Shown here piece by piece: positions 22,191-48,000 of a stretch of DNA of 57,231 nucleotides (its first letter is position 1; the number at the start of each line of letters is the position of its first letter). The position numbers and the translations under genes are program-made. Below the pieces are notes generated by a model that made no database searches, had not been told where the DNA came from, and worked only from the letters and a program-made list of their open reading frames with translations. Source of the DNA: Chromera velia (lineage: Eukaryota > Sar > Chromeraceae); assembly GCA_018398765.1 (NCBI GenBank), contig JAHBMJ010000096.1, positions 1 through 57,231 of the forward strand. The letters are read 5' to 3'.

Positions 22191-22289
22191 GTGGTGCCAG
22201 TATTCACGGTTTGGGGAGGGACAGTTCCGAATCCAACTTTGAAGTCTCTTCATCATCACTCGGATGTCTCCTCTGGGTCGAATCTTTTG

Positions 22290-22560: not shown

Positions 22561-22647
22561 TTCCACTATAATTTTAGCCCATAGATGTATATATGATGAT
22601 AGTAGTATGATATGATGATGATAAGTAGTAGTATATGATGATGATAG

Positions 22648-22741
22648 TAGGTATCAATTTTTTAAAATTGGGAGTTACTGGCGGTAAAAAATTGGTAGTA
22701 CTACTAATTCGATGCCCAATTCAACTCTCAATTCATTAGGG
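22648..22741. repeat. solo end of the foldback family
   Basis: Closely similar to the right-arm end of the foldback element at about 14787-14880, in the same orientation. No partner arm is nearby, so it is a truncated copy or the far end of a larger composite. Confidence 0.85.
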
Positions 22742-23782: not shown

Positions 23783-24298
23783 TCAAAGCCGATCGCGAAG
23801 GTGACCAAGACCGGCTGCTAAAAGCAAACCAAAAGTGATGCGATGGATGTCACGCAAAAGAAAACCGCACTCCTGCAATTCTTTCCACATACCACACAAA
23901 ACTGCAATAAACAAAGAATCGGGACATAATAAAAAAAGAAACGCACGCAAAATATGAGAACGCAAAGTGTCAAGAAGACGATGTGCAGGAACAGCTGATC
24001 GCGCATGAGCGTAGCGAGGAAAGAGAAGAGGAGCCTTCACTCCACCAGCTAGCAAAGACACACGATAGCGATTGGGGTCCTTCGGCAACAAAAACAAGCG
24101 GGTACAGCAGTCGCATGGACGAAGCTCGAACTGCAGAAAAGTGTTCGAATTTTGCTCCTCAAGCACACATTCAACAGCATAAAAATCCTCCCTACGAAGA
24201 CTTGCACATATGTGATCTTTTTCTAAAGCAAAGGGAAGGCGAGCAACCAGGAGCCGATCATCCATCCATCTTCGCACCACACGCTTACTGCCTGACAA
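23783..24298 (-). CDS. hypothetical frame, possible exon
   Basis: A 171-codon minus-strand frame without an ATG at its start; a TTGTCAG acceptor-like site near 24291 would fit an exon. The peptide has a C-x-C-C cluster and a hydrophobic middle. No family is recognised. It lies downstream of the channel gene on the same strand and could be an unrelated exon, 3' transcript sequence or chance. Weak support. Confidence 0.2.
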   Translation of the reverse strand: MSGSKRVVRRWMDDRLLVARLPFALEKDHICASLRREDFYAVECVLEEQNSNTFLQFELRPCDCCTRLFLLPKDPNRYRVSLLAGGVKAPLLFPRYAHARSAVPAHRLLDTLRSHILRAFLFLLCPDSLFIAVLCGMWKELQECGFLLRDIHRITFGLLLAAGLGHLRDRL

Positions 24299-24615
24299 GG
24301 AGCTAAACTAATCAAAAAATAAATGAAACTGTATATCTAGCTACGCATGCAGTTTACTGCAAAGTCAAACAGTGTACCACATTTTACTATCTTACTGCTC
24401 CAAGCCCTAGTCCAAGCCATCTATGAGCGATGTTGTGACCCACCAAATGACTCATAAGCAGGTCACCGGTTTTCAAAGTTTCATGATGTACTATTAAAAC
24501 GCAACATCAATATATTTAGATAAACAACGCTGGCAATCATTAATTTTTTAAAAATTATAACACGTATAAGCCAAAACGTCGTTAAGGACGTTTTCAATCA
24601 ATCACGCACGGCGCG
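24299..24615. other. 3' flank of the channel gene
   Basis: AT-rich; on the minus strand this follows the channel stop codon and would hold its 3' UTR. No clear polyadenylation signal could be assigned. Confidence 0.4.
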
Positions 24616-26846
24616 TTACGCTTCCGTGTCCGACTCCTCTAGCAGCCATCTGTGTCCAAAAGAATCCATACGAGAGAGCTGCTCGCCAACGGAGAGCTCT
24701 AGGGAGGATGAAAATTCAAAGTTTGAATCCTGCAAGGAACTCCCTAAGAATTGATGCTGCTGATGAAGGAGAGGAAGCTGCTCTTCCACTTGACGGTTTT
24801 GTGCAACGGCCCCAGGAGCAGCCTGAGAAGGGGGGGAGGCTTCCGACCTCCCCAGACCTAGATCTAAACTCCGTCTCCCTTCTCTCACCGAATTCACTCC
24901 GGAAGATTCCCCGACAGATTGCAGAATCGAACTGCTCAAATGACGCCCGTGGAGAGATGAGATGTCCACTTGATGGACAGGAGATTGCCCCCCTCTCGAG
25001 CTGTCTGTCGCCTGCATATTCTGTGCAGTCACTGTAGCAGTCTCTGCATCCTGACGGTCACCATCAAGGATGTCCGTCTCTGCCATCACGTTGCTCCCGT
25101 CTCCTATCAGTGCACTGGCTGAAGTTGGGGGAAGCAGCTGTTGAGGCCTTCTACTTGCCCCAAAGGCAGCCGAGGCCGTGGCTGCTGCGGGAAGCATGAC
25201 AACCCCACGACCGGCAGAATAATTCGAAAACGTCTCTAAACCCTCGAAATCAGTCGTTCCCCCCCCTACACCTGTGTCAAGCCCCAGAAGTGCGGGGGCA
25301 GATGGAGCGTTGGGTAGACCCGAATTCCCCCCTCCATTTCCCTGTCCCTGGCTTGGCTGCTCATTTTCATTTGGAGCAGCTGTCCGCCTTTCCTGTCTCA
25401 TCGGATAGGGTGGAGGACGGGATCTCCACGTCTGCGTTGTCTGCTGCTGGGCAAGCGTGGGGCCCTGGGGGGGGGAGTCTTGGGACCTGGGCCCGCCGTC
25501 TTGTGGTGAGAAGGTGAGGATGGAAGTGGACTGTTCTCCCTCGTGGGCGTAGAGGGAGGACAAAACTGCTCCTGTGTGGTTCCTGTCTCCCTGTATGTTT
25601 TGGGATTGGGGCCTCATGGAGTGCTGCCAGTGGAGGGCCATCATCTGTTGCTGCCTGATGATGAGAATCCGCAGAGCGTCCATCTCTCTTTGGAGGTTCA
25701 TCTGACGAGCTAGAACCTCCTGCATGTCTCGGGATTTCGCTCCTCCCTGCATGCGTGACGCAATGAGGCATGCAAGCAAGAGAGGATGAAAAGGTGGATT
25801 TAGGTAGTTTGAAACAAATGTGCACAAATTCTACGACTTTGTTGACTTCCTTCTGCGTGTGTGGAAATTTGTGGATAGATGCGATGACCCCTGTAATTTG
25901 GTTGGCCGTCATTCATTCATTCATTCATTCATTCATTCATTCATGTAGCCAGTCAGTCATAGAAACTCGATTGCGGTCGACTGAAGGTGCAGAGAGGTAG
26001 CAGAAGGCATCGGCATGATCGAGGCTTTGCACGCATGGAATGACAACTCATAGAGAACATACAATTCCCACCATTAAGTAGCGAAGAGTCTGAAGATACA
26101 CATCGTTCTGTCTTGGTCCTCCCCTCTGTGACAAGTGCGAACACTTCGATTGTCCTTTCTCCTTCTTTCTTTGCCAGACTGACTGTCAAAGGACAGGTCG
26201 GTCGGTCGGTAGGTCGGTCTGTGTGCCTATTGGTCTATCTATCTATCTGTTTAAGTGACTGACTGACCTTCATTTCCTGCATCCGATGAATAAGCTCGTC
26301 CAGGTCCACACACAAAGTCCTCTCAGCTGCCGCCATCCCCGCAGGGCCCAGAGTGGCCGGACCTACAGAGGACCGCCGTCTCATCGACAGTCTCGAATCC
26401 TCTATGCCCGTCTCTAGGGCCTGCATCTGTATCAGCTGGTTTTGGGGATTGTACAGAGACTGCATTGACATCAACCCACCAGACCCTGGCCCCGCACTGG
26501 CACTCGCACGGAGTCCCGTGGCTCGTGTGCTGTTCCTCGGGGTCCCCTGGTTGCCCCCTCCATGGTGGTCGTGTTCGTGCACAGTCGGGAGCTGCTGGGT
26601 GGGTTGTGTCTGCATTGGGGGTGACCCTTGTGCTGCGTCGTTTTGGCCTCCTGAGGGTATCACTTCGGGGGCACTCTGTGAACGGGGGGGGCGTGCATCT
26701 GGGGGGATGAGGTCCGATATCCTGACCTCTTGTGCGAGCATGTAGAAGAGCCAGTCGAGATCGCTTGATCTGATCTTGTAGACCTCCATGATGCGCTGCA
26801 CCCACACACATGCACAAGAGGGGAATTGGATGATTGGAGAAAAGAA

Positions 26847-26877
<31 letters not shown>

Positions 26878-29800
26878 CCGTGTTTTGAATTCTCCGGTCA
26901 ACAATGGGCCCCCAACTCCATGATCTACTATCATCCATATGAAAACCAATAAACGCTTTGTCTATATACATTCGCAAAGTGCAAACAGACCGAAGAATTT
27001 TATGTCCTCAGACACACACACCGATTCAAAAAAGGGGATGCCTGACAGTGAAGTCTGATTAGATCAAAAGGGTTCCATCACCACAAGTTCATAGCCATTT
27101 CTTCTAACAGTCTAAAAAGGCAGCCTTCCATTGAATTAAGGGCAATCGACCTGAGCTTTGTACTCGATTCCTCTCCTATCCAACCACTGCAGGAGACGTA
27201 CCTGCATAATGTCCCATTTGCGTATTTGTCTCAGTTGGCTTTCCACCACGACGAATCGAGGAGGTTTCGTACGCGCAGCAGGGGGTGCCTCTGCCCCAGT
27301 GGCACCGATACCGACACCGACGGCTGCCGCAACACTCGCAGGAAAACCGGACCATGATCCTCCTCCTGCTCCTCCCCCCCCTCCCCCACCTGTTGCTCCT
27401 GAAGCAGCCCCGCCTGCCTCTCCCGTTCTCTGTCTTTGGAAGAGTCCCCCTACCCCTCTCACAGCCCACCGGCCCGCAGAACTAACGGGAGAGAAGATAT
27501 CCATGATGCCCCCACCCCCCCCTCCACCCTGTGGTCCTCCCGGATTTGCCGGGGCACTTGCATTGGGCGTCGCTGACGGTGGGGGCCCGGAAGTGCCGTC
27601 TCCCTGGGTGTCTGTTGGGCTCTCAACGTTGATATTGGGAGACGGTGAGGGACTGGGGTTGGGGTTGCCTCTGGGGGGGGACCTAGGTCGTGTGAGGGAC
27701 CCGGCACGCCTCGCTGGGGAAAGGGAGAGCCCCGATCTTGGGGGGCGTCTGTAAAGGAGGTGGCCGTATTGGGAGATCAGATACTTTCGAAGTTTCTTCA
27801 GCTCTCTGCGCTTCTCGAGGGCAACCAACTCCTCGTTCTCCCTTGCCAACTGCAGGCAGGCAGGCAGGCAGGCAGGCAGGCGACACAGAAAAAAGCTAGT
27901 GGAAGTTTCGCTTCAGAAAAAGAAGAAGATAATATATTCACTCTTTGTACAGGAAACTGATAACTTTCCTGTCGCAGAAGGAAAAGAAAAAGTGGACCGA
28001 AACACACAGCAGAGCAATGCATCGACTGGAGGGGTGCACTACGCTCCAAACTAAGGAGGGCAGGCACGACTTCACGATGGAGCGCTCCTGGTTGGTGCCT
28101 TCCTCCACCTGCAAACTCTTTTTGAGCCGACACAAGAAGAACCTTTCTGTCTCTCCACATTTTGTACAGTTCCAACTGTCAATTAACTGACCATGACTGC
28201 TGACTCGACCAGCACGGCAGTCAGGAGGTTGCCGAGTGCGTACACGACGAACCAGATGTACGCACAGAAAAAGAACCACATGTACGGGTTCACGTCCAAC
28301 ACAGGCTGCACGACGTCCGGCCACCCTTCCAGCGTCATGATCTGAAACAGAGATTGGATGCTGTACACCAGAGACCCGAAACGGGCCTGCAAGAAGAAGA
28401 ACAGACAGACAAGCAGGGAGGCAGGGAGGCAAAGAAACAAAAGACCGGAAGGAAGCGATACAGAATGGAGGTATGCAAGTATATGCACAGTAACACAAAC
28501 CCCTTTGCGCAAGCAACAGGGCGCACAACCCCCCCCAACAGACACAGAAAACCTCGCTCAGAGAGGGACAGAAAGATGGCAGGCACGTTTACAATACAAC
28601 GACGCGAGTGGATGCTCTCACCGGAATAGGCAGATAGAAAAGCTTGCCGACAGAAGCACACGAAGCGCTGGAGTAAGACAGACACACAGATACAAGCAAC
28701 AGAACGACAAACGAACGTACGTGAGGGGAATTGATTCCATCGTATCCCGTCTCGCTGTCGCTGTATGCCCCGTCCTGTCCAATCACGGTAGTGGCTGCAC
28801 ATGTACAGACATTCATTTAGGGAACTAGGTAAAGAACGACGACGTTCCTTGCACAGCAACAGGTTGCCTGCCGGTTTGTACTGATTGTGAACCAAAAGAG
28901 CAGAACGGTGGAGGCGACAGAAGGTTCAATTGCTTTGTTGACATCTCTGTGCTTCTCGTGTTTGTCAACAGATTAACTAGGGTTGTGTGCCTCGAGGAAA
29001 ACAAACAAAAGTGTAAAACGAAAAAGAAAGATGAAGTCACAAAGCCCACACGAGAGGGTCACACCTTTGGCACAAGCATTTGGAACAGTGTGCACACAAA
29101 TAAATAAATGCAATCCCTCGACAGACGGACCGAAGATTGCAAATAGAAAGATGATCAGGAACGATATGGAGACGCCCCACATCAGCGTCCTAAGAGAATA
29201 CAGGAGCCCCCGGACCAACAGCCAGAGCTCGAAGAAGAACGGGAAAACCGAAATCACACGAACTGCAGCAGCTAGCCGAAGAATCTGCAGACAGAAAAAC
29301 AAAATCACAACAGTCACCCTCAGCAATGCTAAAAGGAGGTCTTGCGGGGCACACAAAGACACGAATCTTTCCCTCAGTGTCTGGCACTCAGTCGGAAGAA
29401 AGAAATCAAAGCTCCGTTGTCTTCCCCCACCCCTCCCCCACTGACCCTCAAAGAGCTGATTTTACGACAAGCTGACGCCCCAGGAGAGCGAAACCCTGAA
29501 ACACTTCCCGCAAGAACATACGAGAGGGAAGCCGTTACCACTACAATGACGTCCAGTCGATTGTAGACATCCTGAATGTACTGCCTTCTCAGAACAACGC
29601 ACTTGATGGTGATCTCTGTCACATACAGGATCAGACATGAATCCTGTATCCACAGCAGACTAGATAGTGCCGAGGGCGTAAGTCTTTGCCGCAATTGCGA
29701 CGTCTCCACAATTGTGGCGATCGCATTGAGGCCAATGATCACCCAAATGATCAACTCTAAGGTCCAACTGATTAAGAAGCGCCGGAGTTTTCTGGTCTCC

Positions 29801-30090
29801 TGCGCATTCTCAAATTCCTGAAATGGGTCTTCATTCAGTTTTCTCCGAATTTTCTGATACACCCTTGGATCGTCTGTCTGTCGGGGCGTTACAGCGTCTT
29901 GTGGATTGTTTGGAGCAGAAGCCTGTCCAGCTTGTGGAGGCGGTGCAAGCGTGCCGACTGGAAGCTCCACCTCCGTGATCTGCACACTCTGTGCGAGGGA
30001 GGCCCGGCCGTCCGCAGGGTCCCCTCCCAGGCGGGAAGAGACCCCGCTCGGGTACCTGGAGAAGGAATTCTGCGGTCCTACCGCTGCCAT
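24616..30090 (-). CDS. single-domain voltage-gated cation channel
   Basis: Seven exons: 30090-29446, 29284-29131, 28794-28721, 28386-28192, 27849-27202, 26795-26268, 25746-24616. All have GT-AG sites and consistent phases; about 1,124 residues. Cytosolic N-terminus of ~115 residues; S1 (LIIWVIIGLNAIATIV), S2, S3 (NRLDVIVVV), S4 with Arg every third residue (SLRILRL then VRV) split by intron 1, S5 (SISFLIIFLFAIF), pore with selectivity motif TLEGW and S6 (CAYIWFVVYALGNLL). One domain implies a homotetramer, like bacterial NaV or EukCat channels. The Glu suggests Na+ or Ca2+ passage. The ~750-residue cytosolic tail starts with a Lys/Arg-rich helix, has Pro- and Gly-rich linkers, two possible helical segments and a Gln/Met-rich coiled coil. 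Start is the first ATG of the frame. No lesions seen. Confidence 0.85.
25912..25944. repeat. (ATTC)n microsatellite in intron 6
   Basis: Eight ATTC units upstream of the exon 7 acceptor of the channel gene. Confidence 0.9.
26853..26880. repeat. (CTGT)n microsatellite in intron 5
   Basis: About seven CTGT units close to the exon 6 acceptor of the channel gene. Confidence 0.9.
27850..27882. repeat. (GCCT)n at exon 5 splice acceptor
   Basis: On the gene strand, GCCT units run directly into the CTGCAG acceptor of exon 5, so the repeat itself supplies the polypyrimidine tract. Confidence 0.85.
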
Positions 30091-30784
30091 GCTTCCAAAT
30101 TTGAGACTGCCTCTGTTGCCCGCATTGTCTCCACTGGTAAATTGACGAGTGAGAACGAGACTTTGGTACAGAGCGATCTTCTTCCTGTGCCCAGGTCAGT
30201 ACATACACCTGTTCTTTTTGATCGCGTGTCGGAGGATCGATGGAGAAGTTCAGTTTGGGCTGCATGGTCGAAATAAATGGAAATTCGTATGATAGCGGAC
30301 CGAAGTTTTGATGGATATATGCGTACACAATGATGCATGCACCTTAATTTCTGAATGGCTTTTACTGTACCTATAACTGATATATATATATATATGCAGG
30401 ATGCCACTTCCACAGGCTCCAGTGTCATGCCGGGGCCCAGCAAAAAATCGTCTCGACCAAAGCCTCTTAGTATTAATCCTCAGGGCCGTCTTACAAAAAG
30501 ACTGTCTGGAGTCTGGACGATGAAAGTGGAAAGACTATCATGCAAACAGACAGAAAGATAGAAGTGGCGAGTTCGTTATTCAATTAAGCACGAAAGATGA
30601 AAGTGAAGAGAAGTTTAATGTTTGTGTGTTTATCTTCATATATAGGAGTTCTGGTTTGTTCTTATACTATTCCATAACCATTCATAACTATTCAAACCAT
30701 TTTAAGTTCTATCATTTTTTTTTTTCAAAGTTCTTTATCTTTTTTTGTCAAAAGTATTCAAAATTTGGTAAATTACCCATAGTG
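30091..30784. other. 5' region of channel gene and spacer
   Basis: Upstream of the minus-strand channel start. It holds an (AT)n run at 30379-30396, a lone minisatellite-like unit at 30520-30570, and at 30590-30655 a sequence repeated at 33076-33138. AT-rich after 30650. No other gene. Confidence 0.45.
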
Positions 30785-31930: not shown

Positions 31931-33080
31931 AAGAAAGATGGAAATATGAAAGTGGAGAGGCCGTCGTGCAAGAAGAAAGAAAAAAAGATGGAAGTGGAGA
32001 GGCCGTCATACAAACAGACAGAGAGACGGAAGTGGAGAGGCCGTCATGCAAACAGATAGAAAGATGAAAGTGGAGAGGCCGTCGTGCAAGAAGACAGAAC
32101 AATTAAAGTGGAGAGGCTGTCATGCAAACAGACAGAAAGATGAAAGTGGAGAGGCCATCATGCAAACAGACAAAAAGATAGAAGTGGAGAGGCCGTCATG
32201 CAAACAGACAGAAAGATGGAAGTGGAGAGGCTGTCATGGAAACAGACAGAAAGATGGATGTGGAGGGGCCATCGTGCAAACAGATAGAAAGATGAAAGTG
32301 GAGAGGCGCCATGCAAACAGACAGAAAGATGAAAGTGGAGAGGCGCTATGCAAACAGACAGAAAGATGGAAGCGGAGAGGCTGTCATGGAAACAGACAAA
32401 AAGATGGACGTGGAGAGGCCGTCGTGCAAACAGACAGAAAGACGAAAGTGGAGAGGTGCCATGCAAACAGATAGAAAGATGAAAGTGGAGAGGCGCCATG
32501 TAAACAGACAGAAAGATGGAAGCAGAGAGGCGCTATGCAAACAGACAGAAAGATAAAAGTGGAAAGCCCGTCATGCAAACAGACAGAAAGATGGAAGTGG
32601 AGAGGCCGTCATGCAAACAGACAGAAAGACAAAAGTGGAGAGGCTGTCATGCAAACAGACAGAAAGATGGAAGTAGAGAGGCCGTCATTGCAAACAGATA
32701 AAAAGATGGAAGTGGAGAGGCCGCCATGCAAACAGACAGAAAGATGAAAGTGGAGAGGTTGTCATGCAAACAGACAGAAAGATGAAAGTGGAGAGGCGCC
32801 ATGCAAACAGACAGAAAGACGGAAGCGGAGAGCCGCCATGCAAACAGACAGAAAGATAGAAGCGGAGAGGCGCCATGCAAACAGACAGAAAGATGAAAGT
32901 GGAGAGGCGCCATGCAAACAGACAGAAAGATGGAAGTGGGGAGGCCGCCATGCAAACAGACAAAAAGATGAAAGTGGAGAGGCTGTCATGCAAACAGGGA
33001 GAAAGATGGAAGTGGAGAGGCCGTCATGCAAAGAGACAGAAAGATGGAAGTGGAGAGGCCGTCATTCAAGCAGGAAAGGT
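31931..33080. repeat. 38 bp minisatellite, about 30 units
   Basis: Head-to-tail units joining ATGCAAACAGACAGAAAGAT and GAAGTGGAGAGGCCGTC, with point variation (CCGTC, GCGCC, CTGTC variants) and a few short units. 38 is not a multiple of three, so the array reads through all frames with few stops on either strand, giving long spurious peptides. There are no unique spacers, so it is not a CRISPR array. Strong purine strand bias. Confidence 0.95.
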
Positions 33081-33371
33081 GAAAGTGGAGAGAAGTTCAA
33101 CGTCTGCGTGTTTATCTTCATATAGGACTTCTGGCCTGAAGATTTGATCCTCTCACCACGTGTCCAGACAGAAGCTTGATTGAACTGTGTATGCAGAGTT
33201 CGTAACAAGGTCAGTCAAAAAGCTGCTGCTTAGCTGTACGCACAGACGCAGGATTGACTGCAAATTTGGACCTACTGGTGGGCCTGTTACCTCCATCCTC
33301 CAGATGTACAGGAGAATATGCAGCTATGTCTGTCCCATACCAGTTCTTTTTTGCCATCGAAGATAGGTGAG
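33081..33371. other. flank between minisatellite and retroelement
   Basis: Starts with a copy of the segment found at 30590-30655 (TGTTTATCTTCATATA core). The rest is unremarkable, with no gene. Confidence 0.5.
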
Positions 33372-33590
33372 TTCAACTGGAGTAAATGCGGAAGTGTGAA
33401 CTGATGTTCAGCTGGAACAAAGGTCACAAGTTGAACCGAGGAGACGGCTAGCGGAAAGTGACCTCATGCATATTTTTTTTTCCCTATGAAAAACCGAAAT
33501 TCTGAACCCCTCAAATTGAAGTAATATATATGTGCGTACTTGGCCTAGCGTATACTAGATATAGGCTAGCAAAAAGTCAAATTTTCGACT
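33372..33590 (+). repeat. split direct repeat A1
   Basis: 219 bp, starts TTCAACTGGAG and ends TTTTCGACT. Matches A2 with about a dozen substitutions and no length change. Confidence 0.95.
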
Positions 33591-33873
33591 TTGCTACCCT
33601 AGGTTCCTGCAGAGTACCTGCGGAGCGGCCTTCGGGTCTACAAGCAAACTAAAGACTGAGTCGCACGGTGTGCGCGCGGTCTTTTAAAAGCCTGAAAAAT
33701 TTTTGGCACAGTAGTTGCCAGCTAGTTTGCTAGAGCTGAAAGTTAAGACCCACAGTGTGGGGACAGCTCAGGATGTGCATTACTAGACCTTACGAGGCAA
33801 CTCTGCGTCTTCAGGCCTGAAAGGCTATCATTTTTGCAAGTCAGTGCAGCGCCTAGTACCCCAAAGGGCTGCA

Positions 33874-35704
33874 ATGTCGGAAAATGGAGAGAGAGGCCAT
33901 GTGAATGGCGAGGAGGAAAGAGAGCTCCAGCACGAGGAGCAGGAGGTTGCTCAAATACAGGTACGTACTTAGCCTGTGCGCAAACTACGGTGCAATTGAG
34001 AATTTATAAAGCGCAATCACATATGTGTGCTCTCTTACCCTCCGAATGCAGAACGGTGAAGAGGAAGAGAAACAGTCGGACGCGAACAGTGATAAAGGAG
34101 GTGCTGGAGTGGGCATTGAGGCGCTGCTCGCTGCAGTGAGTTCCAATGGTGACCTGCCGCTCGAATGGCGGCAAGCCCTTGCGGGCTTGTCCGCCGAAGA
34201 GAGGCTCAAGTTGCTGGGACTAGACCCGAGGGAATATCGGGTTCAAAAGCAGCCTACCGGGTCTGAAAAGCGGAAGGACCGGCGTGACCAGCAACAACAG
34301 CAGGCATCAAGCAGTAGCAGCAGCAGTAGTAGTGCCGCCGCTGCCGCAGCGAGCAGTACACAGGCTCGCAGGCCCAGCACACTTCTCTCCTCCCTCGTGA
34401 AGAAGTCTGACATCGGAAAGAAGACCTTACCGGCTGAAGCGGCATGCGCAGCGGCCCTCAAGGAGGGGTTGAGAGTGTCGTTGAAGAGAAAAGGGCCCGA
34501 GACCAGAGCCCCAAGCCCCCCTGCGAAGGAGGGCCGTCGAGAGACCGCCGTAGACGTGTCCGACGAAGAGCCCAACTACGACCCACCGGACGATGGTCAG
34601 TTCTCCAGTTCCGAGCCCGATGAGACTGCCCCTTTGCATCTCACACTCGTCCGACAGAAACCTCGTCCCTCCCCCCAGGAAGGGGAAATCCCCACCCTCA
34701 GAGAGCCTGAAGTGTTCTCCATGGGTGATGTGCCACAGAAGTCACGTGACCCAACATGTCTCATCCCCTCCAACGCTGAGGTCGCAAAAGCACTCCTGAT
34801 GACGGCCAAAGCCAATGGCCCCCCACAGCCGATCAACTTTGAGAAGTGGTCGGTCGACGATGTGGAAACGGAGTGGCACAGCCTGGTCGAGCAGTACCGC
34901 TCCGAGCGTGAGAAAGCAAGGAAGGGGAAAGACATCGACCACGCCAACTTCTGCGCAGACGTGATGGATGCCGGAAACGGGCTTATTCGAGCTATCCGAC
35001 AGATTCGAGCCCTGTTCACATCACAGAAGCGTCTCATCAAGTTGATGCAATTCAGTTCGGATGACACAGCCAGCAGCAGTAGCAGCAGCAGCAGCACCGA
35101 CAACCCCCGCGCCGAAGAGGCAAAGAAAGCAAAGAACGCGCAGACCAATGCGGTAGTGGCTGCCGCGTTGAAGACCACAGTCGCCATTATGGCACGCGAA
35201 TTGAAGCGGGTGTCGATCAACCTCCAGACTCATGAGTTTTCGGACGTGGGGAATGCCATCAACTGGAACTCCCTGCTGTTCATTGTGAAACTCAAGCAGG
35301 ATGCCATCACCATGCATCGTCAGCTGAAGGACCTGACGAAAGAGGTTGATAAGCTTAAGGACATCGTCGCGGGCCTGAAGGCGAGAAGCAAGGACCGGGG
35401 GGGGTATGATTGTGATGGGTTTGCAATCCCTGAGCCTATCAGGTGCTACGACTGCAACACTCTGGGCCATCTATCCCCTAACTGCCTGAACGCGTGCAAG
35501 GTCTGTCAGCAAATCAAGCGCCTAACAGGCAGCACCACCCTCAATGTCCTCCACTCCCCTGAGGACTGCCCGAAGAAGGCCACTGACCCTGACACCTGGG
35601 CAGCCCTTCAGGCGCAGGTCTTGAAGGGATCGAGAGGGGGCGGTGGCGGCCCGTATGGCGGCCGTCGTCAAGGAGGGGGAAGGGGGGGAAAGAGTCGCTG
35701 GTAA
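33874..35704 (+). CDS. Gag-like protein with zinc knuckle
   Basis: Exon 1 (33874-33960, ATG start) and exon 2 (34052-35704) join in phase across a GTACGT-TGCAG intron of 91 bp, giving 579 residues. The N-terminus is acidic. Then come Ser/Ala homopolymer runs (AGCAGC codons), a central charged helical part, a second Ser run, and near the C-terminus a CCHC knuckle (CYDCNTLGHLSPNC) and further C-x2-C/H-x4-C residues, followed by a Gly/Arg-rich tail. This is the nucleic-acid-binding structural protein of the retroelement. It has no internal stop, unlike pol downstream. It ends at TAA, with 17 further codons to a TGA. Confidence 0.8.
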
Positions 35705-36189
35705 GAGAAGCGATGTGGCTATGTGGCGCAGGGTTATGCGCGACTCGCAGCGTGAGAGAAGAGGCACAAGTAGGGAAACGGGGGCGTGATACGCGTTCAC
35801 CCATTCATCCACTCACCCGAGTCATCCGCATGCAAGAGAGAGCAATTGAGAAGAGCGGGACCCGTATACTGGTGGTTGAAGCAGTGAGCGTGATACGCGT
35901 TTGAGTGTTATGGGTGGAGGCCTGAGAGAGGCACCAACCATGTGAGTGCACGTTGAGTTACAGTTGCGCAGTAAGCAGGTCTGAAGGCTGGGTACAGCAG
36001 TGCAGTATGACCGGTCCGAACTGACTAAGTGATCAGTCTAGGGCAGGCGCACTGACTTGTGCATGGCCAAAATCGATTGAAAGCGCATAAATGAGGATAG
36101 ACGCTTAGCTGTATGGTTCAAAGTGTAAGACTCAACGCAATTATAGGACCATTAGCGCAATTTAGTAAGGATTTAGCCTGCAAACTAAG
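35705..36189. other. gag-pol spacer
   Basis: No long frame. In the pol frame the stretch 36025-36189 has only TAG and TAA stops, the nearest TGA being at 36022. It may be leader, intron or eroded coding sequence. Confidence 0.4.
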
Positions 36190-38525
36190 GTGCACAGTCA
36201 CAGTACCAACAGAAGTAGAAAGCAAGATATAATTAGTACATCATTAACAGATGGATGCTTGACTACAGGAAGAAATGACGATGAGGGTAGTGAGGAGGCA
36301 GACGAGCATGGGCAGAACCAACTCGAAGGTCAGCTGATGCTGCAGTACTACCTAGCGATGGATGTATCACCCCGTCCGCCTCTGCCCCCGCTCACCTCCA
36401 AATGGCCGATGGGCCTAGAGGACTGGACAGTCCCAGCCCCGTCCGTCTCCCCACCAGCAGGATGGAAGACGCCAGAGAAGTGGTCGAAAAGACCATGTCT
36501 AGATGCCGTTGCAGCCCGGAGGCTAGGCGTAGATGAGAAGGTGGTAAGCATTATGGAGGACGGATTGCGGCTGCCGCTAAACAGATGGCCGTCAAAGGTG
36601 TCACTAGGAAATTACTCCTCGATCTTTGTAGCAGACCTCCCAGCAAAAGTAGCAGCCGAATTTCATCGTCTGGAAGCAGAAAGGTTCATTAAAAGGGTTG
36701 AAACGCAACCAGCAGTCGTATCGCCCTTAGGTGCAGTACCAAAGCCAGAGACGGGAGAACCGCGCATCATTGTTGACATGACTGCGTCTGGAATCAACGA
36801 TGCGACGGCTGACACAGTCATGGGGCTTCCGACAGTGCGTCATGGCGGCCTCAAACCTGGCTGCTACTTAGCAAAGCTTGATTTAAAAGACGGTTATTTC
36901 TATATTCGGGTCCATCCCGATCATGTAGACCTCCTCGGATTCTTTAACCCATTTAATCAGTCATAGTATAGGTACCGAGTCATGTGTTTTGGTTTGAAAG
37001 TCGCCCTCTTTGTGTTCCAAGGAGTTATGGAACATATGCAAGCCATGTTCCGCCAGCACGGGTTGAACAGTGCAATAGTCAGCTCGCTGACGTACATAGA
37101 TGACTTTTTGATTGCAGCTGATACGGAAGAGGAGCCCTTGAACTGGTGTAATCGTTACTACGCGCCCTCGGTTGGAAAATTAAGGACTCCAAAATAGTGT
37201 TACCAACCACAGCCCTAGAGTTCACAGGAATTGGCATCGACACCGATCGCCTCCGTCTGTATATCCTGTTATAAAAGCGGGAGAAAGCGGGGAAGCGAAT
37301 TGACGTACTCCTCAACGAAACGTGTCCCGCGCTCGGAGCCCTAAGTAGCACCATAGGGCTTCTAGGGCATCTGCGCATGGTCATGCCCCATGGAGGGCAG
37401 CGGCTTGCGGCAGGATGGGAAATTTTGGGGAAGGTCAAAATGATAAAAAGAAATTGGCAATGGCAGAAAAAGGGCTTCACGATGGTTCCCGAATTGAGAG
37501 AAGGGCTAAAATGGTGGAAAGACAGGCTGCAAGGTTGCTCGACATGCAAGCTCTGGGTTAACCCAGAAGGGCGGCTAGATATTTGGGCTGGTGACTGGCT
37601 GAACAGTTGGAGAGATGAAGTACCGGGCATTGAACGCATCACGACTGACGCAGCGGCCCCGGGAGGAGGAGGTTTTGGGGGTGGTCTAGCAACCCTCTGG
37701 GCCTGGTTGGGTGCCCAGACGATAGCATCGAGCAACTGGAGGGAGTTGAAGACCGTGCCTCTCGCCCTCCGGGCGATCATTTCCACAAATAACCTAGTAT
37801 GGCGGGGCAAGCGTATGCTGGTCATGTCAGACAACTCCACCGCGGTTCGTATCATCAACAAACGTCACTCGACCGCCCAAGCACTTGGCCAGGTACTGGA
37901 AGAAATCCAAGCATTGGAACCGTTACGGCGCTTCGATATTGAAATAGCAGCGGTACACATCCCGGGTATAGAGAACACCATAGCTGACGCGTTGTTCCGC
38001 CTTCCGGGCGAGGCCCACTGTAGGAGAACCCTCACAGCAGCAGTCACGCGACACCTCCAGCACTAATGGCAGAGAGTATCGGGGCTAGAAAGCCCACTGC
38101 AGATCGTTTGCCCCCCCGCAGACCAGTATGAAAGCAGTATTAGGCAGGCACACCAGCAAGGAGGGGTTATCGTGATGCCAGCTGTCCAGAAACCGGCGTG
38201 GGAGGCCATGCTGAGAGGTGCACGAACATTGCAGAGATGGGAAGTAGGATCAAGACTGTTTGACCGCGAGGTTCAGTGGATAGAGTCGATCGCAGGGCCA
38301 GCAGGCACTCCGATGTAGGCGATAGCACGAGCTGAGGCTGTGATTAGGGAAGGGTGGTACGCTTTAGCATTTATGAGATAAAATCGACCTGAATATGGCT
38401 ACGAGTCATTAAACCTCAAACAGTTAGTAGCATGCCTAGACCGGCCTAGACTTAGTGTGTAGTATATCGATGTCATGCACAATAACCAGGCCAGCGATGC
38501 ATTATACAGGAGAACTAGGCACTAA
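36190..38525 (+). pseudogene. reverse transcriptase-RNase H, stop-interrupted
   Basis: The RT has LDLKDGYFYIRVHP (first catalytic Asp), then RVMCFGL and the YIDDFL catalytic box. RNase H follows with Asp in TTDAA, Glu in NWREL, Asp in MSDNSTAV and a last Asp in ENTIADAL, the DIRS-type arrangement. One frameshift lies near 37130. In-frame stops are TAG 36964, TAA 37149, TAA 37272, TAA 38064, TAG 38316, TAA 38379, TAG 38460 and TAA 38523; none is TGA. Sequence between stops keeps good RT/RNase H character, so the stops are recent or tolerated. Copies retroelement RNA into DNA. Confidence 0.8.
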
Positions 38526-38543
38526 GGCAGTTTGGGGGAGTAA

Positions 38544-39626
38544 ACAATACGTGTCTGCGCTAACGTGCATGCAGGTACAGTAGGCGTAACGAGCACCAAA
38601 AAACGGAAGGTGCAGCTATCCGTCCGGGCACGGGAAGCAGGACTAATGGATGCTCAACACCCAGGCCTGCTGGAACAAAGCATAGGCCAAGTAGACAAAA
38701 ATGAGCTGGCTGCTAGAGCCACAGTGATCGAGGGCAGAGCGCTGGAAAAGAGTACAAAGGCCAGATACCAGAGCGCCATCAGCCGGCTAGACAGAACGTG
38801 CCCAGGCCTACTACCCGTATACTCCGCGGAGGGCATAAAAAAAGCATTTACGTCATGTATGGGCCTGAAAGCATATCAGGTTGGCTTGCTCAGGGGCGCG
38901 TTGATGTGGTAGCACCATGAAAACGGACACCCACCGCCGCCAGTTGATAACCCAGAGCTTCGCCTCTTTTGGAAGGGCCTCGACAAGTCTGTATCCCATG
39001 TGGTAAAAGAAAAAGAAGTGCTTACAGCAGCGCAGTTCCGTAAAGTCATTGAACATTGGGTCAAGCTAGGCACCCGCGATGCGCTGCGCAATGCGGCCAT
39101 CGCAATGCTCGCCTTCTACCCCGCCAAGCGCATTAGCGAGGTTCTGAGCCTGCAACGCGCAGACCTGCGCAGTGAAACAAAGAACCAGATTGAAATGCTG
39201 ATCGTCGCAATCCACAGGCAAAAGAACGACCAGCGGGGCAGAGGCAAGATGTGTCCTCTCCCTATGGTGACGAAAGCAGGGGAATCAGTGGGTCAAGTTG
39301 TTGCCAAATTTTTACGGTCGGCCCCCACGGAAGGGCCATTGTTCCAGACCACTAAGGCATACGAAAACCAATAGACGGGCGCTGCAATCATGAGAGACGC
39401 CTTCCAGAAGGCCCTGCAGAAAGCAGTAGTAGCAGCACTACCCAACATCAGCAGCAAAGCGTACACCACCCACTCACTCCGGTGCAGTGGTTTTTGCGCT
39501 GCAAAACGGGCTAACATCTCACATAACCTGGCCGTGGACATCATGGGCCACAACAGCACGAATGCATGGCTGGCCTATTTCCCTCCCAGCCTGCCGGACA
39601 TCGCCGATGCGATTGCGTCTATCTGA
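38544..39626 (+). pseudogene. tyrosine recombinase, two in-frame TAGs
   Basis: N-terminal SAM-like helices (STKARYQSAISRLD), then a catalytic domain with Arg I in AKRISEVLSL, HxxR in THSLRCSGF, the second His in IMGHNST and the nucleophile Tyr in WLAYF. All tetrad positions are present at normal spacing. It is in the same frame as RNase H upstream, after TAA 38541. Two ambers (TAG 38910, TAG 39372) interrupt it, and the end is TGA 39624. Integrates the element's circular DNA by site-specific recombination without target duplication. Confidence 0.85.
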
Positions 39627-39678
39627 GGGGCCCGCGCACCGGCACCTACCCGGGTACGGACCCCTTCTTCTTCCCTCT

Positions 39679-39713
39679 GGGGGTTTGGGGGGTTTGTGGG
39701 GGGTTTGGGGGGG
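39679..39713 (+). promoter_or_regulatory. G-quadruplex-type G-tract
   Basis: Four G-runs of 5, 6, 6 and 7 separated by TTT, TTTGT and TTT, between the recombinase stop codon and B1. It fits the four-stranded motif very well. It would form on plus-strand DNA or on the element RNA; its function is unknown. Confidence 0.7.
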
Positions 39714-39902
39714 AGCAGAGCAAAGGAGCTGCGCTAGCGCAGGAGAAAGCGCGGCGAGCGGAGATGCTCTGCAACCACGACTGCGTCACTAGAAATGGGG
39801 CACAGGCGATCAAGTATGAAACCCGTAGAGGCCCGCCTGTATTGGCCTGTGTCAATCTGGACGTGCGTAAGGGAGGTAACGAGGTAGCCTGTGCAAGCTG
39901 AA
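39707..39902 (+). repeat. split direct repeat B1
   Basis: 196 bp, GGGGGAGCAGAGCAAAGG to GCAAGCTGAA. Matches B2. Confidence 0.95.
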
Positions 39903-39909
39903 AGATGAC

Positions 39910-40128
39910 TTCAACTGGAGCAAATGCGGAAGTGTGAACTGATGTTCAGCTGGAACAAAGGTCACGAGTTGAACCGAGGAGACGGCTAGCGGAAAGTGAC
40001 CTCGTGCATGTTTTTTTTTCCCTACGAAAAACCGAAATTCTGAACCCCTCAAATCGAGGTAATATATATGTGCGTACGTGGCCTAGCGTATACTAGATAT
40101 AGGCTAGTAAAAAGTTAAATTTTCGACT
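39910..40128 (+). repeat. split direct repeat A2
   Basis: 219 bp, the 3' partner of A1, starting about 8 bp after B1. Confidence 0.95.
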
Positions 40129-40250
40129 CTTCCCTCCCACCCCAGCGGTACGCTGCTGGGTTCCGCCACCATAGGCGGCGCCCAAATATGCGGCAGTACA
40201 GCTGGTCTGGGACTGAGCCCGGCTCGCCGGCCTCACATGTAATCACGTCA

Positions 40251-40446
40251 GGGGGGGAGCAGAGCAAAGGAGCTGCGCTGGCGCAGGAGAAAGCGCGGTG
40301 AGCGGAGACGCTCTGCAACCACGACTGTGTCACTAGAAATGGGGCGCAGGCGATCAAGTATGAAACCCGTAGAGGCCCGCCTGTGTTGGTCTGTGTCAAT
40401 CTGGACGTGCGTAAGGAAGGTAACGAGGTAGCCTGTGCAAGCTGAA
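40251..40446 (+). repeat. split direct repeat B2
   Basis: 196 bp partner of B1 and right end of the element. The A2-B2 spacer (40129-40250) includes a hairpin CCCAGC-GGTAC-GCTGCTGGG near 40141-40160. Confidence 0.95.
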
Positions 40447-41212
40447 CCTATAGCTTAATTAATTAAATACATTGGCGTGGCCGAGATCGATCTTGTGCCA
40501 TGCACTGGCGTCCCGCACATATTGCTTGAGGAGCACGTTTCTCTCTGCATGTTGTGCGGAGGGATGGATTGTTTCCTCGCGACCGTTCGCACGGAGCCCG
40601 CCATGCGTGACGGATGGGTGTCGCGATCAGGCTTCACTCGCGCGCGTTACCCGTTGACCCAGGTCGCGGGGGTATATAGAACTAGACAAGAACCGAGGCC
40701 CTGGGCCCCGGCATACTTTAATTAATTGATTAATTAATTTTTAAAATAGTATCAACATTCGCGAATACACAGTGAGGGCTTACTGCATGTATATATGTAA
40801 ATTAAATCATTAAATTTTAATTAATTAATTAATTAATTGATCGATCGCAGAGTCTATAATCTGTATGTGTGAGTGCGCAGGATCCGTGAAAGAGAGGAAA
40901 TGCCCAATAGTCTGAGGCAGAATTAAAAATGTGCCCCTCAAGCTGCGCTTTACGGGGCCAAGACATCACAATTCGCGCAGTCATGCAGCTTTCTTCTCTT
41001 GTCTCGTGCAGAATGACCTGAAATCTCGAAAAGCCCGAACACATTCTTTCCCTGTAGACAGAAACTCGAACAATAATGACCTGTTCTTCTGGAACTGCAG
41101 CAACGCAACGGCTGATGGACAATGGAAGTTTGACATCCAAAGCGATTCAGTCAGTCAATTGACTTACCTGAGTAATTGCGCCTGACAGTCTCTGTGTGAC
41201 TGATCAGAGACC
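40447..41212. other. spacer with TTAA runs
   Basis: TTAATTAA-rich tracts (40455-40468, 40719-40740, 40818-40840) bracket a GC-balanced 250 bp segment whose short plus frame (40477-40725) has no known domain. At 41012-41185, after a GTGCAG acceptor-like site, a short frame with WNCSNATADGQW precedes the big gene, but it ends in TGA before that gene's ATG. Confidence 0.45.
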
Positions 41213-42079: not shown

Positions 42080-45000
42080 CGGACAGACAGACAAGCGGTC
42101 ATACCTGTCTCTATTGTTCACTCTGTTTTCTTCTGCTTTCTCTTCCACCGCTTCTAACCACATCTCACAGTGAGTAAAAACTGAATGGTACTTTTTTTCA
42201 CGAACTGTTGCATTTCTCCTATGTGCAGTTCAAGAGAACGTGCATGCGCGAGGTGCCGGAGGGCGGGCTTGTGGTAAAGGGATCCCAGCCTGCTCCCCCC
42301 TGGGGCAACTGTCACTGGGCACCGCCTGAGCAGAGGTGTGCAGTGGAGGGATTTCAGTGTTACAAGAACACCCAGTGGGCCGACTATGCTCAGTGTCGGC
42401 CTCTGGGTGATTGTCCAAAGCCGAGCGCCAGGACTTTATACAACCATCACATGAATGGGGGGAATGGGGGAGTGCAGGGTCCTCCTGAGAGCGCTCACAG
42501 GAGGCTGACAAAGGCAGCGAGGACAGCAGAAGCAGCGGGGTTTGGGGGGAAAACACCTGGGGAAAGAAGGAGACGGCTAGCAGCATTGCAACAGTGCAAC
42601 AGTGCAGTGCAGGCTGCCGTGGGTAGTGGAGCGTTTGACATTTCATCGAGTGCCGCCGAGGGTGCTCACGTAGTCCCTGCATTGATTCAAGAAAAGTGCC
42701 CAGATGCCTTCGACACCTCCACTCCCGGGAGTGTTCCCCCCTGGGGTCCTTCCTCCTCCTCCTCTTCCGACAGCACTCCCGCAGAGCCCAACTTGGCCCT
42801 GGGGGCGCGGAACCTCCCTGCTGATATGATTGGGGTAGATGATGGGTGGAGTCTAGGATGGGTGTGCGACGCTTCCATGGGCCCTGTGGCAACAGTCGAA
42901 GGGGGAGCGATGAGTGCGTGCGAGACGAGACGGCAATTGGATGGGACAGGAATTGAACCCGCAGCAGCCGTTCCGTTCAGTGTGGGAACGCTGTGTGAGG
43001 AGGAGAAACTGTCGATGCAGACAGCCGCAGCGCATCTGCAGAGGCGGTTACAGGCAGTTGGGGAGATGTTCGGGGACAGCGGTGCATCTTTAGAGGAAGC
43101 AGCAACACCCCCTCCCCCGGTGAAGCTTTCACCCTACTTGGTTGATGTTGCGGAAGCCGTCATTGCGGCTGAGCAGCCAGACCTCCCCCCCCGTCTGACT
43201 CGCAGGTTGGTAGATTTCTTCAGTGGAATGACAGACGATGATTTCTTCTCAGCCGCGGATGAGCTCTCGGCTCTGTCTGCTTCCGAAAAGACCTCTTGGT
43301 TTGTGGACAGGGGGGTAGATCTTCGTCTAACTCGGATGGAGATTGAGGCAGCTGTGTTTGAGCATCAGCCTCTGGTCGGCAACCTTCCAGTGGCAAGTCA
43401 GAACAAGCTCTTTGACTTTTTGGCGTCAATGGACACCGTCTCCTTCTCTGCCCTTATGGACAACCTCCAGACAGATCCCTCTTCCTCCAACATAGCATTC
43501 CAGCTCCAGCAGCAAAACGTCGACATCAGACCCACATCCGAACAAATGGAAGCCAAACTCAAAAAAGAATTCCCCCAACTCACAGAAGTGGACCGTCGTC
43601 AAATTGCAGCATCCCTTGTTGCCACGACCCTCGCAGAGTTCCTCTCCAATTCAGAGGAAATCTCAGAACTCCAGACGGCTGCCGAGCTAAAAACATGGGC
43701 CGAGTCCAACGGGTTCTCTGACGCCCCTGTAACAACAGAGGCCAGCACCCTGCCCACCACCCTTCCACCCTTCCTTGTGGACGTCGCTCGGGAGGTCGTG
43801 AAGGCCGAGCAGCCGACCTTGCCCGAGCGTTTGCGTCAGAAGATCGTTGATTACTTCTCCAGCCTTACGGAAAGTGAGTTCTTTGAGGCCGTGGGGGAAG
43901 TGCAGGGGGTGGGTCCTGTCGAGAGTGCGCAGTACTTTGCAGACAGGGGGGTGGACTTGAAGCCCAACCGCACAGAGCTTGAGACCATGACTTTTGCAAG
44001 CTCTCCCGAACTCCGTGGCCTTCCCCAGTCATCTCAAGAGAAGCTTTTCTCCTTCCTCAGCACCCTCTCGCAGGTTGAGTTGGCAGAGAGTCAAGAGATT
44101 GGAAACGACCCCGCAGCCTTCGGGGCTTTCCTTGAGGCTCGGGGAGCAGATATCACCCCGAGTCAAGAGGAGATGGAGGAAGTGATTGCAGATGAAAGGC
44201 TCACGCCAGCCATCCGCTCGGCCACAGCCACTCACCTCATTTCTCTCGGGCCTGCCGATTTCCTCGTCCAGCTCGGGGGTCTGGCCAACGTCACATCGAC
44301 TCAACAATTCTTTCTGTGGGTGTCGAAGAATCAGGTTGATCTCACCCCAAGCCCCCGCCCCTCATCTGACCCATCCCTTCAGGCAATGCAGGCCTCTAGT
44401 GACCCACAGACCCTCACCGACGGTCAAGCAGGAGAAGCAGGAGAGCAGCCGTCTCCTTCTGCCCCCCTTCCTTCTTTCCTTCTGGACGTGGCACGAGACG
44501 TGGTGGAAGTAGAGCAGCCGACGATGCCTGAACGTCTCCGCGGTAAGATCGTTGACTATTTCGCCTCGCTCACGGAAGATCAGTTCTTTGAGGCCGTAGG
44601 AGAGGTGCAGGGGGTGAGTGCGGTCGAGAGTGCGCAGTACTTCGCTGACAGGGGGGTCGACCTGACTCCTAATCGTACCGAGCTTGAGACCATGACTTTT
44701 GCAAGCTCCCCAGAGCTTCGCGGCCTTCCCCAGTCTTCTCAAGAGAAGCTTTTCTCTTTCCTCGGCACTCTCTCACAGGTTGAATTGGCAGAGAGTCAGG
44801 AAATAGGCAACAATCCCGCAGCCTTCGGGGCTTTCCTTGAGTCACGAGATGTTGACATCAAGCCGACTCAGCAGGAGCTCGAGGCCACCATCGGAGCCCA
44901 AGATGACAGACTCCCCCCCGCCATCCGCACAGCCACAGCCACCCATCTCCTTTCTCTGGGGACTGCCGACTTCCTCGTTCAGTTGGGAGATCTGGCAAAG

Positions 45001-48000
45001 GTCACGTCCCCNNNNNNNNNNNNNNNNNNNNNNNNNNNNNNNNNNNNNNNNNNNNNNNNNNNNNNNNNNNNNNNNNNNNNNNNNNNNNNNNNNNNNNNNN
45101 NNNNNNNNNNNNNNNNNNNNNNNNNNNNNNNNNNNNNNNNNNNNNNNNNNNNNNNNNNNNNNNNNNNNNNNNNNNNNNNNNNNNNNNNNNNNNNNNNNNN
45201 NNNNNNNNNNNNNNNNNNNNNNNNNNNNNNNNNNNNNNNNNNNNNNNNNTCCCCCCCCCTCCGCCTCCCCCCCCGCCGCCGACTCTCGTCTCCCCCCCCG
45301 GTGTAGCTCCGCCACCGAGCAGCTCAAGCCCCCCCGCTGAAGAATCTGCTCCCCTTCCCTCCTTCCTTTTGGACGTGGCACGAGACGTGGTGGAAGCAGA
45401 GCAGCCCACGATGCCTGAGCGTCTCCGCTACAAGATTGTTGAGTACTTCTCCACCCTCACAGAGGATCAGTTCTTTGAGGCCGTAGGAGAGGTGCAGGGG
45501 GTGAGTGCTGTCGAGAGTGCGCAGTACTTCGCTGACAGGGGGGTGGATCTGACTCCTAATCGTACCGAGCTTGAGACCATGACTTTTGCAAGCTCCCCCG
45601 AGCTTCGCGGTCTGCCCCAGTCGTCTCAAGAGAAGCTCTTCTCTTTCCTCGGCACTCTCTCACAGGTTGAATTGGCAGAGAGCCAAGAGATTGGCAATGA
45701 CCCTGCAGCCTTCGGGGCTTTCCTTGAGTCACGAGATGTTGACATCAAGCCGACTCAGCAGGAGCTCGAGGCCACCATCGGAGCCCAAGATGACAGACTC
45801 CCCCCCGCCATCCGCACAGCCACAGCCACCCATCTCCTTTCTCTGGGGACTGCCGACTTCCTCGTTCAGTTGGGAGATCTGGCAAAGGTCACGTCCCCTC
45901 AGGAGTTTGCTGCATGGGCTTCCGAGAACAGCGTCAACCTGCGTCCCTCCCCCCCTTCCTCTGAGCCCGACACTCTGACACCCGAGGAAGTCCCTGTGTC
46001 TTCTTCCACGACCACCACCACTCCCAGCAGCACAACTGCCGCTGCAGGAGAAGGCGAGTCTGATGGTTCCCCTCCCTCAGACAGCTCGGATGCCCCCATT
46101 CCCTCCGTCCTCCTGGATATAGCACGGGATGTGATTGTTGCAGAGCAGCCCGATCTCCCAGAGCGCCTCCAGGGAAAGATCATTGACTATCTGTCGACCC
46201 TCTCAGAGACAGAGTTCTTCGATGCCGTTGATGAGCTGCAGGGGGCCACTCCAGTCCAGAGTGCACAGTACTTTGCAGACAGGGGGGTAGACCTGACTCC
46301 CAACCGCACAGAGCTGGAGGCCATGACTTTTGCAAGCTCCCCAGAGCTTCGGGGCCTTCCCCAGTCATCTCAAGAGAAGCTCTTCTCCTTACTCAGCACT
46401 CTCTCGCAGGTAGAGTTGGCCGAGAGTCAGGAGCTCGGGAAGGACCCAGCTGCGTTCGGTGCTTTCCTTGAGTCGCGAGATATTGACATCAAACCAAGTC
46501 AAGAGGAGATGGAGGAAACGATTGCGGCGCAAGATGACAGACTCCCCCCCGCCATCCGCACAGCCACAGCCGTTCACCTCCTGTCTCTAGGCACTGCCGA
46601 TTTTCTCGTCCAGCTCGAGGGACTATCGAAGGTTGACTCTCCCCAGAGCTTTGCGGCCTGGACTAGAAAGCACGATGTCGATTTGAGTGGAAGGCCGTCT
46701 GAGTCAGCTGGTGATGAAGACAGTGCGTTCCCTGCTCCAACCAACACGACAGAAGGCAGAGAGACGGAGACAGCAGATGGAGATGAAGAAGGAGGTTCTT
46801 CAGAAGGCATTCCTCCCGTCCTTCTCTCCATTGCAGAGGACGTGATTGCCTCGGAGCAGCCTGATCTGCCTGATCGGTTGCGTCAGAGAATAATGGATTA
46901 CTTGTCGTCTCTCAACGAGACAGAGTTCTTCGACGCTATTGACTCATTGCAGGGGGTCACTCCAGTCGAGAGTGCACAGTACTTCGCTGACAGAGGGGTA
47001 GACCTGACTCCCAACCGCACAGAGCTCGAGGCCATGACTTTCGCAAGCTCCCCAGAGCTTCGCGGCCTTCCAAAGTCATCCCAAGAGAGGCTTTTCTCCT
47101 TCCTCAGTACTCTCTCACAGGTAGAGTTGGCAGAGAGCCAGGAGCTCGGGAAGGACCCCGCAGCCTTCGGGGAATTCCTGGAGTCTCAGGACGTTGACAT
47201 CAAGCCCAGTCAAGAGGAGATGGAGGAGGCAATCAGATCACAAGACAGCAGGCTCCCCTCCTCTGCTGTGTCTGCTGTAGCCACTCATGTCCTGTCCCTC
47301 CCAACGAGCGGGTTTCTCTCAACCCTCTCGCAGTTGGAGTCAATTTCAGATCCTGCCGAATTTATCAAGTGGGCGTCGGATGAGGGGATTGAGTTGGGGC
47401 TTCCAGAGGGATTTGACCCCTCAATGTTGGGAGAGTTGGGGGGGGGGAACGGTACAGAAACCAACGGAACGCTTCCGGATGCCCTCCTTTCCCTAGTGGA
47501 GAGTCAACTCGACTCCGAGAGTCCCCCTCTGCCCCCGAGTGTGAGAAAGAGGGTGATGAATTGGTTTGCAGGACTCGAGCAAGACGAGTTTTTCGATGCC
47601 GTCAGTGAGCTTCAGGGGGTGAGTGCTGTAGAAAGAGCGAAGTATTTTGAGGAGAGGGGGGTGGATTTGAGGCCCACTAGGGCAGAGCTTGAGGAGGCAA
47701 TTGCTTCAGAGAACGCTGACGTGAAGCTTCTCCCGAAGTCGTCCAAGAAGAAGCTCTTTGATTATCTTTCCACTCTCTCAGCCGTGGAGCTTACGGAATT
47801 GCAGGCTTCAGGCAGCACGAGTGAGGCTCTGGGGAGCTTTTTGGATTCGAGGGACGTTGACATTTTGCCCACGTCGAGAGAGATGGAGAAGATTGTCAAG
47901 GAAAGAGACAGCCGTATCACCACTGCCCAGACACGAACGATCGTGAACTATCTTCTCTCGCAGAACAGTACTGGCTTCCTGACTGAGTCAGAGACTCTCA

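Follow-up and report, generated by a model that had tools for sequence, protein, structure and literature searches.

Retrotransposons with split direct repeats and a tyrosine recombinase (YR) are known from Symbiodinium (PMC5890265), Cafeteria (PMC8547959), Ectocarpus (PMC12477816) and green algae (PMC4157794, PMC3266345). Two classification keys (PMC4157794, PMC3783388) assign split-repeat elements without a methyltransferase to Ngaro (or Viper) and those with a methyltransferase to PAT. The element described here is found in a 57,231-nt stretch of Chromera velia DNA (contig JAHBMJ010000096.1, positions 1 to 57,231; below, the window), where it occupies 7,082 bp of the forward strand, from AGGTGAG at 33365 to GCTGAA ending at 40446. 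With a probability of roughly 0.86 the element is a Ngaro-like YR retrotransposon of a photosynthetic alveolate, low in copy number and represented here by a full-length but decayed copy. The family is new, while the type of element is already known from other hosts.

Ngaro elements, described from Cafeteria burkhardae, fungi, zebrafish and Ectocarpus, have the structure A1-[open reading frames]-B1A2B2 with gag, reverse transcriptase (RT)-RNase H and YR (PMC8547959), no methyltransferase, and internal repeats downstream of the YR (PMC4157794, PMC3783388). Fifteen Ngaro families are given for Ectocarpus (PMC12477816). The window element agrees with this structure but belongs to another host lineage and has a 122-bp spacer between A2 and B2, the comparison being one of descriptions only. 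In the VIPER/TATE group, VIPER likewise has A1-B1-A2-B2 repeats and no methyltransferase (PMC6681497, PMC4157794); these elements are reported from kinetoplastids, whereas the present host is a photosynthetic alveolate, and the comparison is again by description only. SymbioDIRS-Dnmt3 of the dinoflagellate Symbiodinium, also an alveolate, shares the A-coding-B-A-B repeats, the RT and a separate open reading frame (ORF) for the YR (PMC5890265). It differs by a Dnmt3 domain in pol, which was not matched in the pol pieces scanned here. The order of the pol and integrase ORFs is described as shuffled in Symbiodinium (PMC5890265), which also has DIRS elements without Dnmt3. The literature search, which mostly did not extend to subscription papers, covered YR and DIRS elements of Chromera and other alveolates and gave, among the papers listed, no report of YR elements in Chromera.

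The features of the window copy and its flanks are as follows, with the basis of each in brackets.

33205-33364 (+), left flank, part of a dispersed host repeat, ending in GAT (match to unoccupied copies)
33365-40446 (+), whole element (termini common to other copies; empty site)
33365-33590 (+), A1, left terminal split direct repeat, 219-bp core from 33372 (repeat comparison)
34046-35704 (+), gag-like ORF, open, 553 aa from the first ATG (position; CX2CX4HX4C zinc knuckle at 35444-35485)
36334-37415 (+), reverse transcriptase, YIDD at 37093 (RVT_1 matches in the copies L001 and L002)
37630-38066 (+), RNase H, D-E-D-D (ITTDAA 37638, NWRELK 37734, MSDNST 37824, ADAL 37983; motifs assigned by eye)
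38547-39623 (+), tyrosine recombinase (KRIS 39126, HSLR 39471, GHNS 39546, LAYF 39570)
39707-39902 (+), B1 (repeat comparison)
39897-39909 (+), B1-A2 junction, putative recombination site (order as in a B2-to-A1 circle junction)
39903-40128 (+), A2, 219-bp core from 39910 (repeat comparison)
40129-40250 (+), unique A2-B2 spacer, 122 bp (spacer at the same place in L001, L002 and five other elements with the full repeat set)
40251-40446 (+), B2, right terminal split direct repeat (repeat comparison)
40447-40606 (+), right flank, remainder of the same host repeat, beginning CCTATAGC... (match to unoccupied copies)

The order of parts proposed in the preliminary description (A1, gag, RT-RNase H, YR, B1, A2, B2) is retained with two corrections. 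Both termini were set from the other copies, which places the left one 7 bp before the start first given (33372), and A2 and B2 are not contiguous. The spacer separating them is 122 bp long in L001 as well and about 133 bp in L002. A repeat scan of 32800-41000 found two long direct pairs, 33362-33590 with 39900-40128 (94% ungapped) and 39707-39902 with 40251-40446 (96%), and one short tandem array. On alignment the 219-bp repeats A1 and A2 show 10 differences (95.4% identical) and the 196-bp repeats B1 and B2 show 8 (95.9% identical), which agrees with the repeat lengths first reported. The same scan, with a threshold of 30 nt, gave no inverted pair; the inverted terminal repeats and internal complementary region of DIRS1 were thus not seen, and assignment to DIRS1 was rejected on structure. 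At the B1-A2 junction GCTGAA is joined to AGATGAC in the window and to AGGTGAG in L001 and in a shorter copy, L003. This internal junction is the sequence expected from a circle closing B2 onto A1.

A search with the A repeat found at least 12 places in at least 7 contigs, the window included. The whole 7-kb element is present and collinear at two other unlinked loci, on contigs C3117 (95% identity) and C3881 (91%), which excludes chance as the origin of the arrangement. The full-length copies are thus three (window, L001 and L002), all with broken ORFs. L003 (C3551, about 65186-66524, minus strand) is a deletion derivative of about 1.34 kb that joins some 60 bp of A1 to the last 1.27 kb of the element and keeps both termini; it is possibly a non-autonomous form. 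Contigs C2396, C1271 and C640 hold fragments. The prediction that other genomic copies would share the same ends was borne out: all six loci that retain the left end begin with AGGTGAG (four) or a variant of one or two bases (AGGTTAG and AGGCTAG, one each), and all four intact B2 copies end in GCTGAA.

The window copy is inserted into a dispersed host repeat (33205-33364 and 40447-40606), and the two flanks joined together gave 40 listed genome matches, the best with 98% identity over all 320 nt. In the best 20 of these 40, the unoccupied copies read GAAGAT up to the junction in 20 of 20, followed by CCTAT in 19 of 20. The left flank retains the GAT of the target, and the right end of the element has GAA, as B1 does at its own end; the target is otherwise neither lost nor duplicated. 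Since GAT stands at the junction in every unoccupied copy aligned, the insertion is exact apart from the 3-bp GAT/GAA overlap. An overlap of this size is expected from exchange within a 3-bp core and is typical of recombinase exchange. If the GAA of B2 is counted as part of the element, three of the four two-ended copies show no duplication and the fourth a 2-nt coincidence, so that insertion occurs without target-site duplication, as in YR retrotransposons. The trinucleotides preceding the left end at the six loci (GAT, GTT, GAA, GTA, GAA and GAA) all conform to GWW (W, A or T), in agreement with the GAA found at the B end of the element itself. Outside the family, the element on C62 has the same flanks as the window copy (GAT left, GAA right), and three loci of a clade with inverted coding order have ATG at both ends. 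The exact unoccupied sites are direct evidence for a recombinase-type insertion with an exchange region of about 3 bp.

The coding regions of the window copy are decayed. Its RT is interrupted by stops at 36964, 37149 and 37272 and by a frame change near 37128-37134, and the first RT ORF gave no Pfam match; the open RT stretches of L001 and L002 matched RVT_1 at 2.3e-23 and 9.5e-21. The YR contains stops at 38910 and 39372. All the catalytic residues attributed to it at the outset can nevertheless be read in the window copy (R, K, HxxR, GH and Y), and they are kept in most families of this genome. The element ORFs that were scanned gave no match to an rve integrase. The combination of RT, RNase H and YR without a matched DDE integrase is that of YR retrotransposons (order DIRS). 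The window copy is therefore full-length, as first described, only in layout: with stops in RT and YR and the frame change in RT it is not coding-competent.

The host was first described as a probable alga, and this is upheld by 58 matches to light-harvesting proteins and 11 to alveolins (IMCp) in the genome, all above cut-off, although one of 14 control genomes (Caulobacter) also gave alveolin matches. Together the two sets of matches point to a photosynthetic alveolate as host. Searches of the genome for RuBisCO and with an 18S pattern gave no match. The YR query gave 68 reported matches in this genome and the RT query 112 scored matches from 378 candidates, among which other RT types are numerous. 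RT and YR lie within 6 kb of each other on 40 contigs, on the same strand in 37 and on opposite strands in three; this count was taken from the positions in the two match lists with the weaker RT rows excluded, and it includes a marginal YR match on C156. Among 13 other loci fetched, five (C62, C1367, C2303, C1287 and C2710) have the full A1-B1-A2-B2 set, and the remaining eight have one long direct pair or none within the stretch fetched. No relatives were confirmed in two scans of viral contigs and one of genome contigs.

The phylogenetic analyses cover elements of this genome only. The RT tree (19 rows, midpoint root) separates 16 RTs of the element type from three Gypsy-type RTs with 100/100 support. 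Families I, II and III and the inverted clade are recovered, with starred support, in this tree and in the YR tree (15 rows) alike; several of the deeper joins have long branches and are unsure. At the C1367 locus (20500-30499, L016) A1 lies no more than some 260 bp upstream of the RT match, which leaves little room for an upstream gag. On C3307 (L010) the direct pair of a family III element is accompanied by a 410-nt inverted repeat (6832-7241 and 7550-7959, 97.8% identical), perhaps a second, oppositely placed fragment.

A replication model for split-repeat elements has been described (PMC6681497). Under the general split-repeat model, the element RNA would be copied inside particles formed by gag, and annealing between repeat copies would allow the internal B1-A2 block to template the lost termini. 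The product would then become a double-stranded circle with a B-A junction, and the YR would recombine this junction with a target reading GWW, the exchange covering about 3 bp. States private to the A repeats are common to both repeats of a copy in five of nine cases, against 1.8 expected by chance (3 of 15 pairs). This is the sharing that homogenisation would predict, but the excess is slight and is not seen in B, the numbers are small and the sites are too few.

Several observations weigh against the interpretation as a YR retrotransposon of this kind. Within-copy sharing of the B repeats is found in two of four cases (L002 left out), and several repeats are nearer to a repeat of another copy than to their own partner. 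The absence of target duplication depends on assigning GAA to the element, and the left flank also reads GAA in three of the six loci; L002, of which both ends are known, looks like a 3-bp direct repeat if GAA is taken as target. The C1367 element, of another family, has ATT to the left and GAA to the right and does not conform to GWW. RNase H falls below the Pfam cut-off (RVT_3 at 0.09 in the window, 0.0019 and 0.00031 in family III), and the gag-like ORF matched no gag family in Pfam, being named by position and zinc knuckle. The matches of the window YR to Phage_integrase are weak (0.032 with two ORF pieces joined, and 0.01), and the open YR of L001, at 2.9e-4, is also below the cut-off. 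A family III relative reaches 7.3e-10, above the cut-off, and judged from these sequence matches the YR call is partly dependent on it. A phmmer comparison of the YR with solved structures gave one chance match only (0.6), and an AlphaFold model of the read-through YR was uninformative (mean predicted local distance difference test score 44.6) and was discarded.

Under the two keys the Ngaro-like rather than PAT- or DIRS1-like assignment is one by structure, not phylogeny. The preliminary description had left the element in a joint PAT/Ngaro branch; the structure supports this branch, and the Ngaro-like side of it is preferred because of the lack of a methyltransferase match and because the internal repeats of the A1-B1-A2-B2 set lie downstream of the YR. 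Searched with Pfam profiles only, and in decayed copies, the parts of pol that were scanned (families I and III and the inverted clade) gave no match to Dam or another methyltransferase, and neither did the stretch from pol to YR, read in three frames in the window element and in family III. The position between RNase H and YR at which PAT-like elements carry this domain is thus without a match.

The alternative that survives best, although unlikely, is a PAT-like element of the TOC/Kangaroo branch, known from green algae, whose methyltransferase has been lost or is too diverged to be detected. PAT elements (PAT1, TOC3, Kangaroo and the PAT-like elements of Ectocarpus) likewise combine a YR with A1-B1-A2-B2 repeats, and TOC3-type elements are present in algae (PMC4157794). 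PAT-like elements do not form one group in RT trees (PMC6681497), and the 255 codons between the last RNase H motif and the YR core could leave space for a small domain. PAT-like elements are, however, defined by the methyltransferase that was unmatched in the pieces scanned, and the downstream position of the internal repeats also argues against them. The gag of the window element has a zinc knuckle, whereas TOC and Kangaroo are described without a gag zinc finger, and the YR of Kangaroo is inverted (PMC4157794).

A long terminal repeat (Gypsy-type) retrotransposon, its repeats split by nested insertion or rearrangement, would be in keeping with the nearest solved relatives of the RT, which are retroviral and Ty3 RTs. 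It was rejected as highly improbable, since the identical split layout recurs in unlinked copies and in other families, nothing but the 3-bp overlap is duplicated when compared with the empty site, a YR is present with rve unmatched in the ORFs scanned while the three Gypsy-type controls carry rve and H2C2 domains, and the RTs of the two types separate with 100/100 support. An assembly artefact, conceivable in an assembly with gaps (one of them in the window near 45 kb), is very improbable, because paired repeats in each of the three full-length copies have diverged by 4-8% and the same structure is found on three contigs. The window element, read as Ngaro-like, adds a complete family of split-repeat YR retrotransposons in a photosynthetic alveolate, one for which the pre-insertion site is resolved.

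In three loci, within A1-B1-A2-spacer-B2 repeats, RT-RNase H runs antisense to the YR and to a gag-like ORF.

C2303, 8500-20196 (L013 and L024), ambisense element
C1287, 14000-28000 (L025 and L014), ambisense element
C2710, 49000-63000 (L026 and L015), ambisense element

The order in this inverted clade is A1, gag-like ORF (+), RNase H-RT (-), YR (+), B1, A2, spacer and B2, and each of the three loci has YCLR as its HxxR box. The clade comprises two families with 63-70% nucleotide identity where they can be aligned. On C2303 the RT matched RVT_1 at 3.1e-12 and the YR matched Phage_integrase at 0.0041, below the cut-off, whereas the gag-like ORF and the RNase H part gave no Pfam match and are named by position and motif. 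Between C2303 and C1287 the RT-RNase H has 401 of 683 residues identical (non-synonymous divergence, dN, about 0.40; synonymous divergence, dS, too high for a value to be obtained), and 143 of 239 are identical in the YR (dN 0.33). One internal stop interrupts the RT-RNase H of C2303. From these comparisons, the antisense RT-RNase H and the YR of the inverted clade have apparently been under purifying selection.

The window element probably belongs to a local radiation of methyltransferase-less split-repeat YR retrotransposons, the ambisense lineage included, in a chromerid-like alga, a proposal held with less confidence than the assignment of the element itself. If it is true, the ambisense elements would need to make their RT from a transcript opposite to that of gag and YR. 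In the accessible literature on inverted or ambisense YR retrotransposons an inverted YR is reported and an inverted RT was not found; the published inverted forms, Kangaroo and a Daphnia PAT element, have the YR and not the RT reversed. The shuffled ordering of ORFs in Symbiodinium (PMC5890265) could include something similar. With 40 contigs carrying RT and YR, three of them on opposite strands, this genome offers a useful test of the split-repeat replication model under a rearranged coding order.

The decay of the copies is characterized by transitions, which make up 81 of the 82 differences within copies (seven repeat pairs in four copies); the window and L001 differ by 318 transitions and 15 transversions. 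The bias is also seen in families II, III and the inverted clade, and five pairs from the other YR families give transition to transversion ratios between 7.3 and 9.7. Where a single one of the three full-length copies differs, the change is mainly C-to-T or G-to-A, about equally on the two strands, and C-to-T rates are highest in the CpA and CpG contexts (7.4% and 9.2%, against 2.4% for CpC and 2.7% for CpT). In the host repeat that received the insertion the contexts are biased in the same way (CpA 4.5%, CpG 3.9%, CpC 1.2%, CpT 1.9%), with a weaker excess of transitions (120:40). No clustering of changes by strand was found (49 runs against 51.3 expected, 52 against 51.2 and 113 against 99.1). 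Because C-to-T and G-to-A changes are symmetric across strands, deamination of single-stranded complementary DNA is disfavoured. A process like repeat-induced point mutation was considered and rejected, given the lack of strand clustering and the same bias in the host repeat; deamination of methylated cytosines explains the pattern at least as well. The lack of strand runs and the shared bias would make methylation-linked deamination the simplest cause of the decay, and the stops may be C-to-T changes that followed insertion, most of them in CpA and CpG contexts.

Elsewhere in the window, long open frames with repeated blocks extend over 42178-52235, a region that includes the assembly gap near 45 kb; the first 874 aa of these frames gave no match in a Pfam search. 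Just upstream of the insertion, 31950-33100 consists of a tandem array with a unit of 37-38 bp, in which an ORF is present at 31950.

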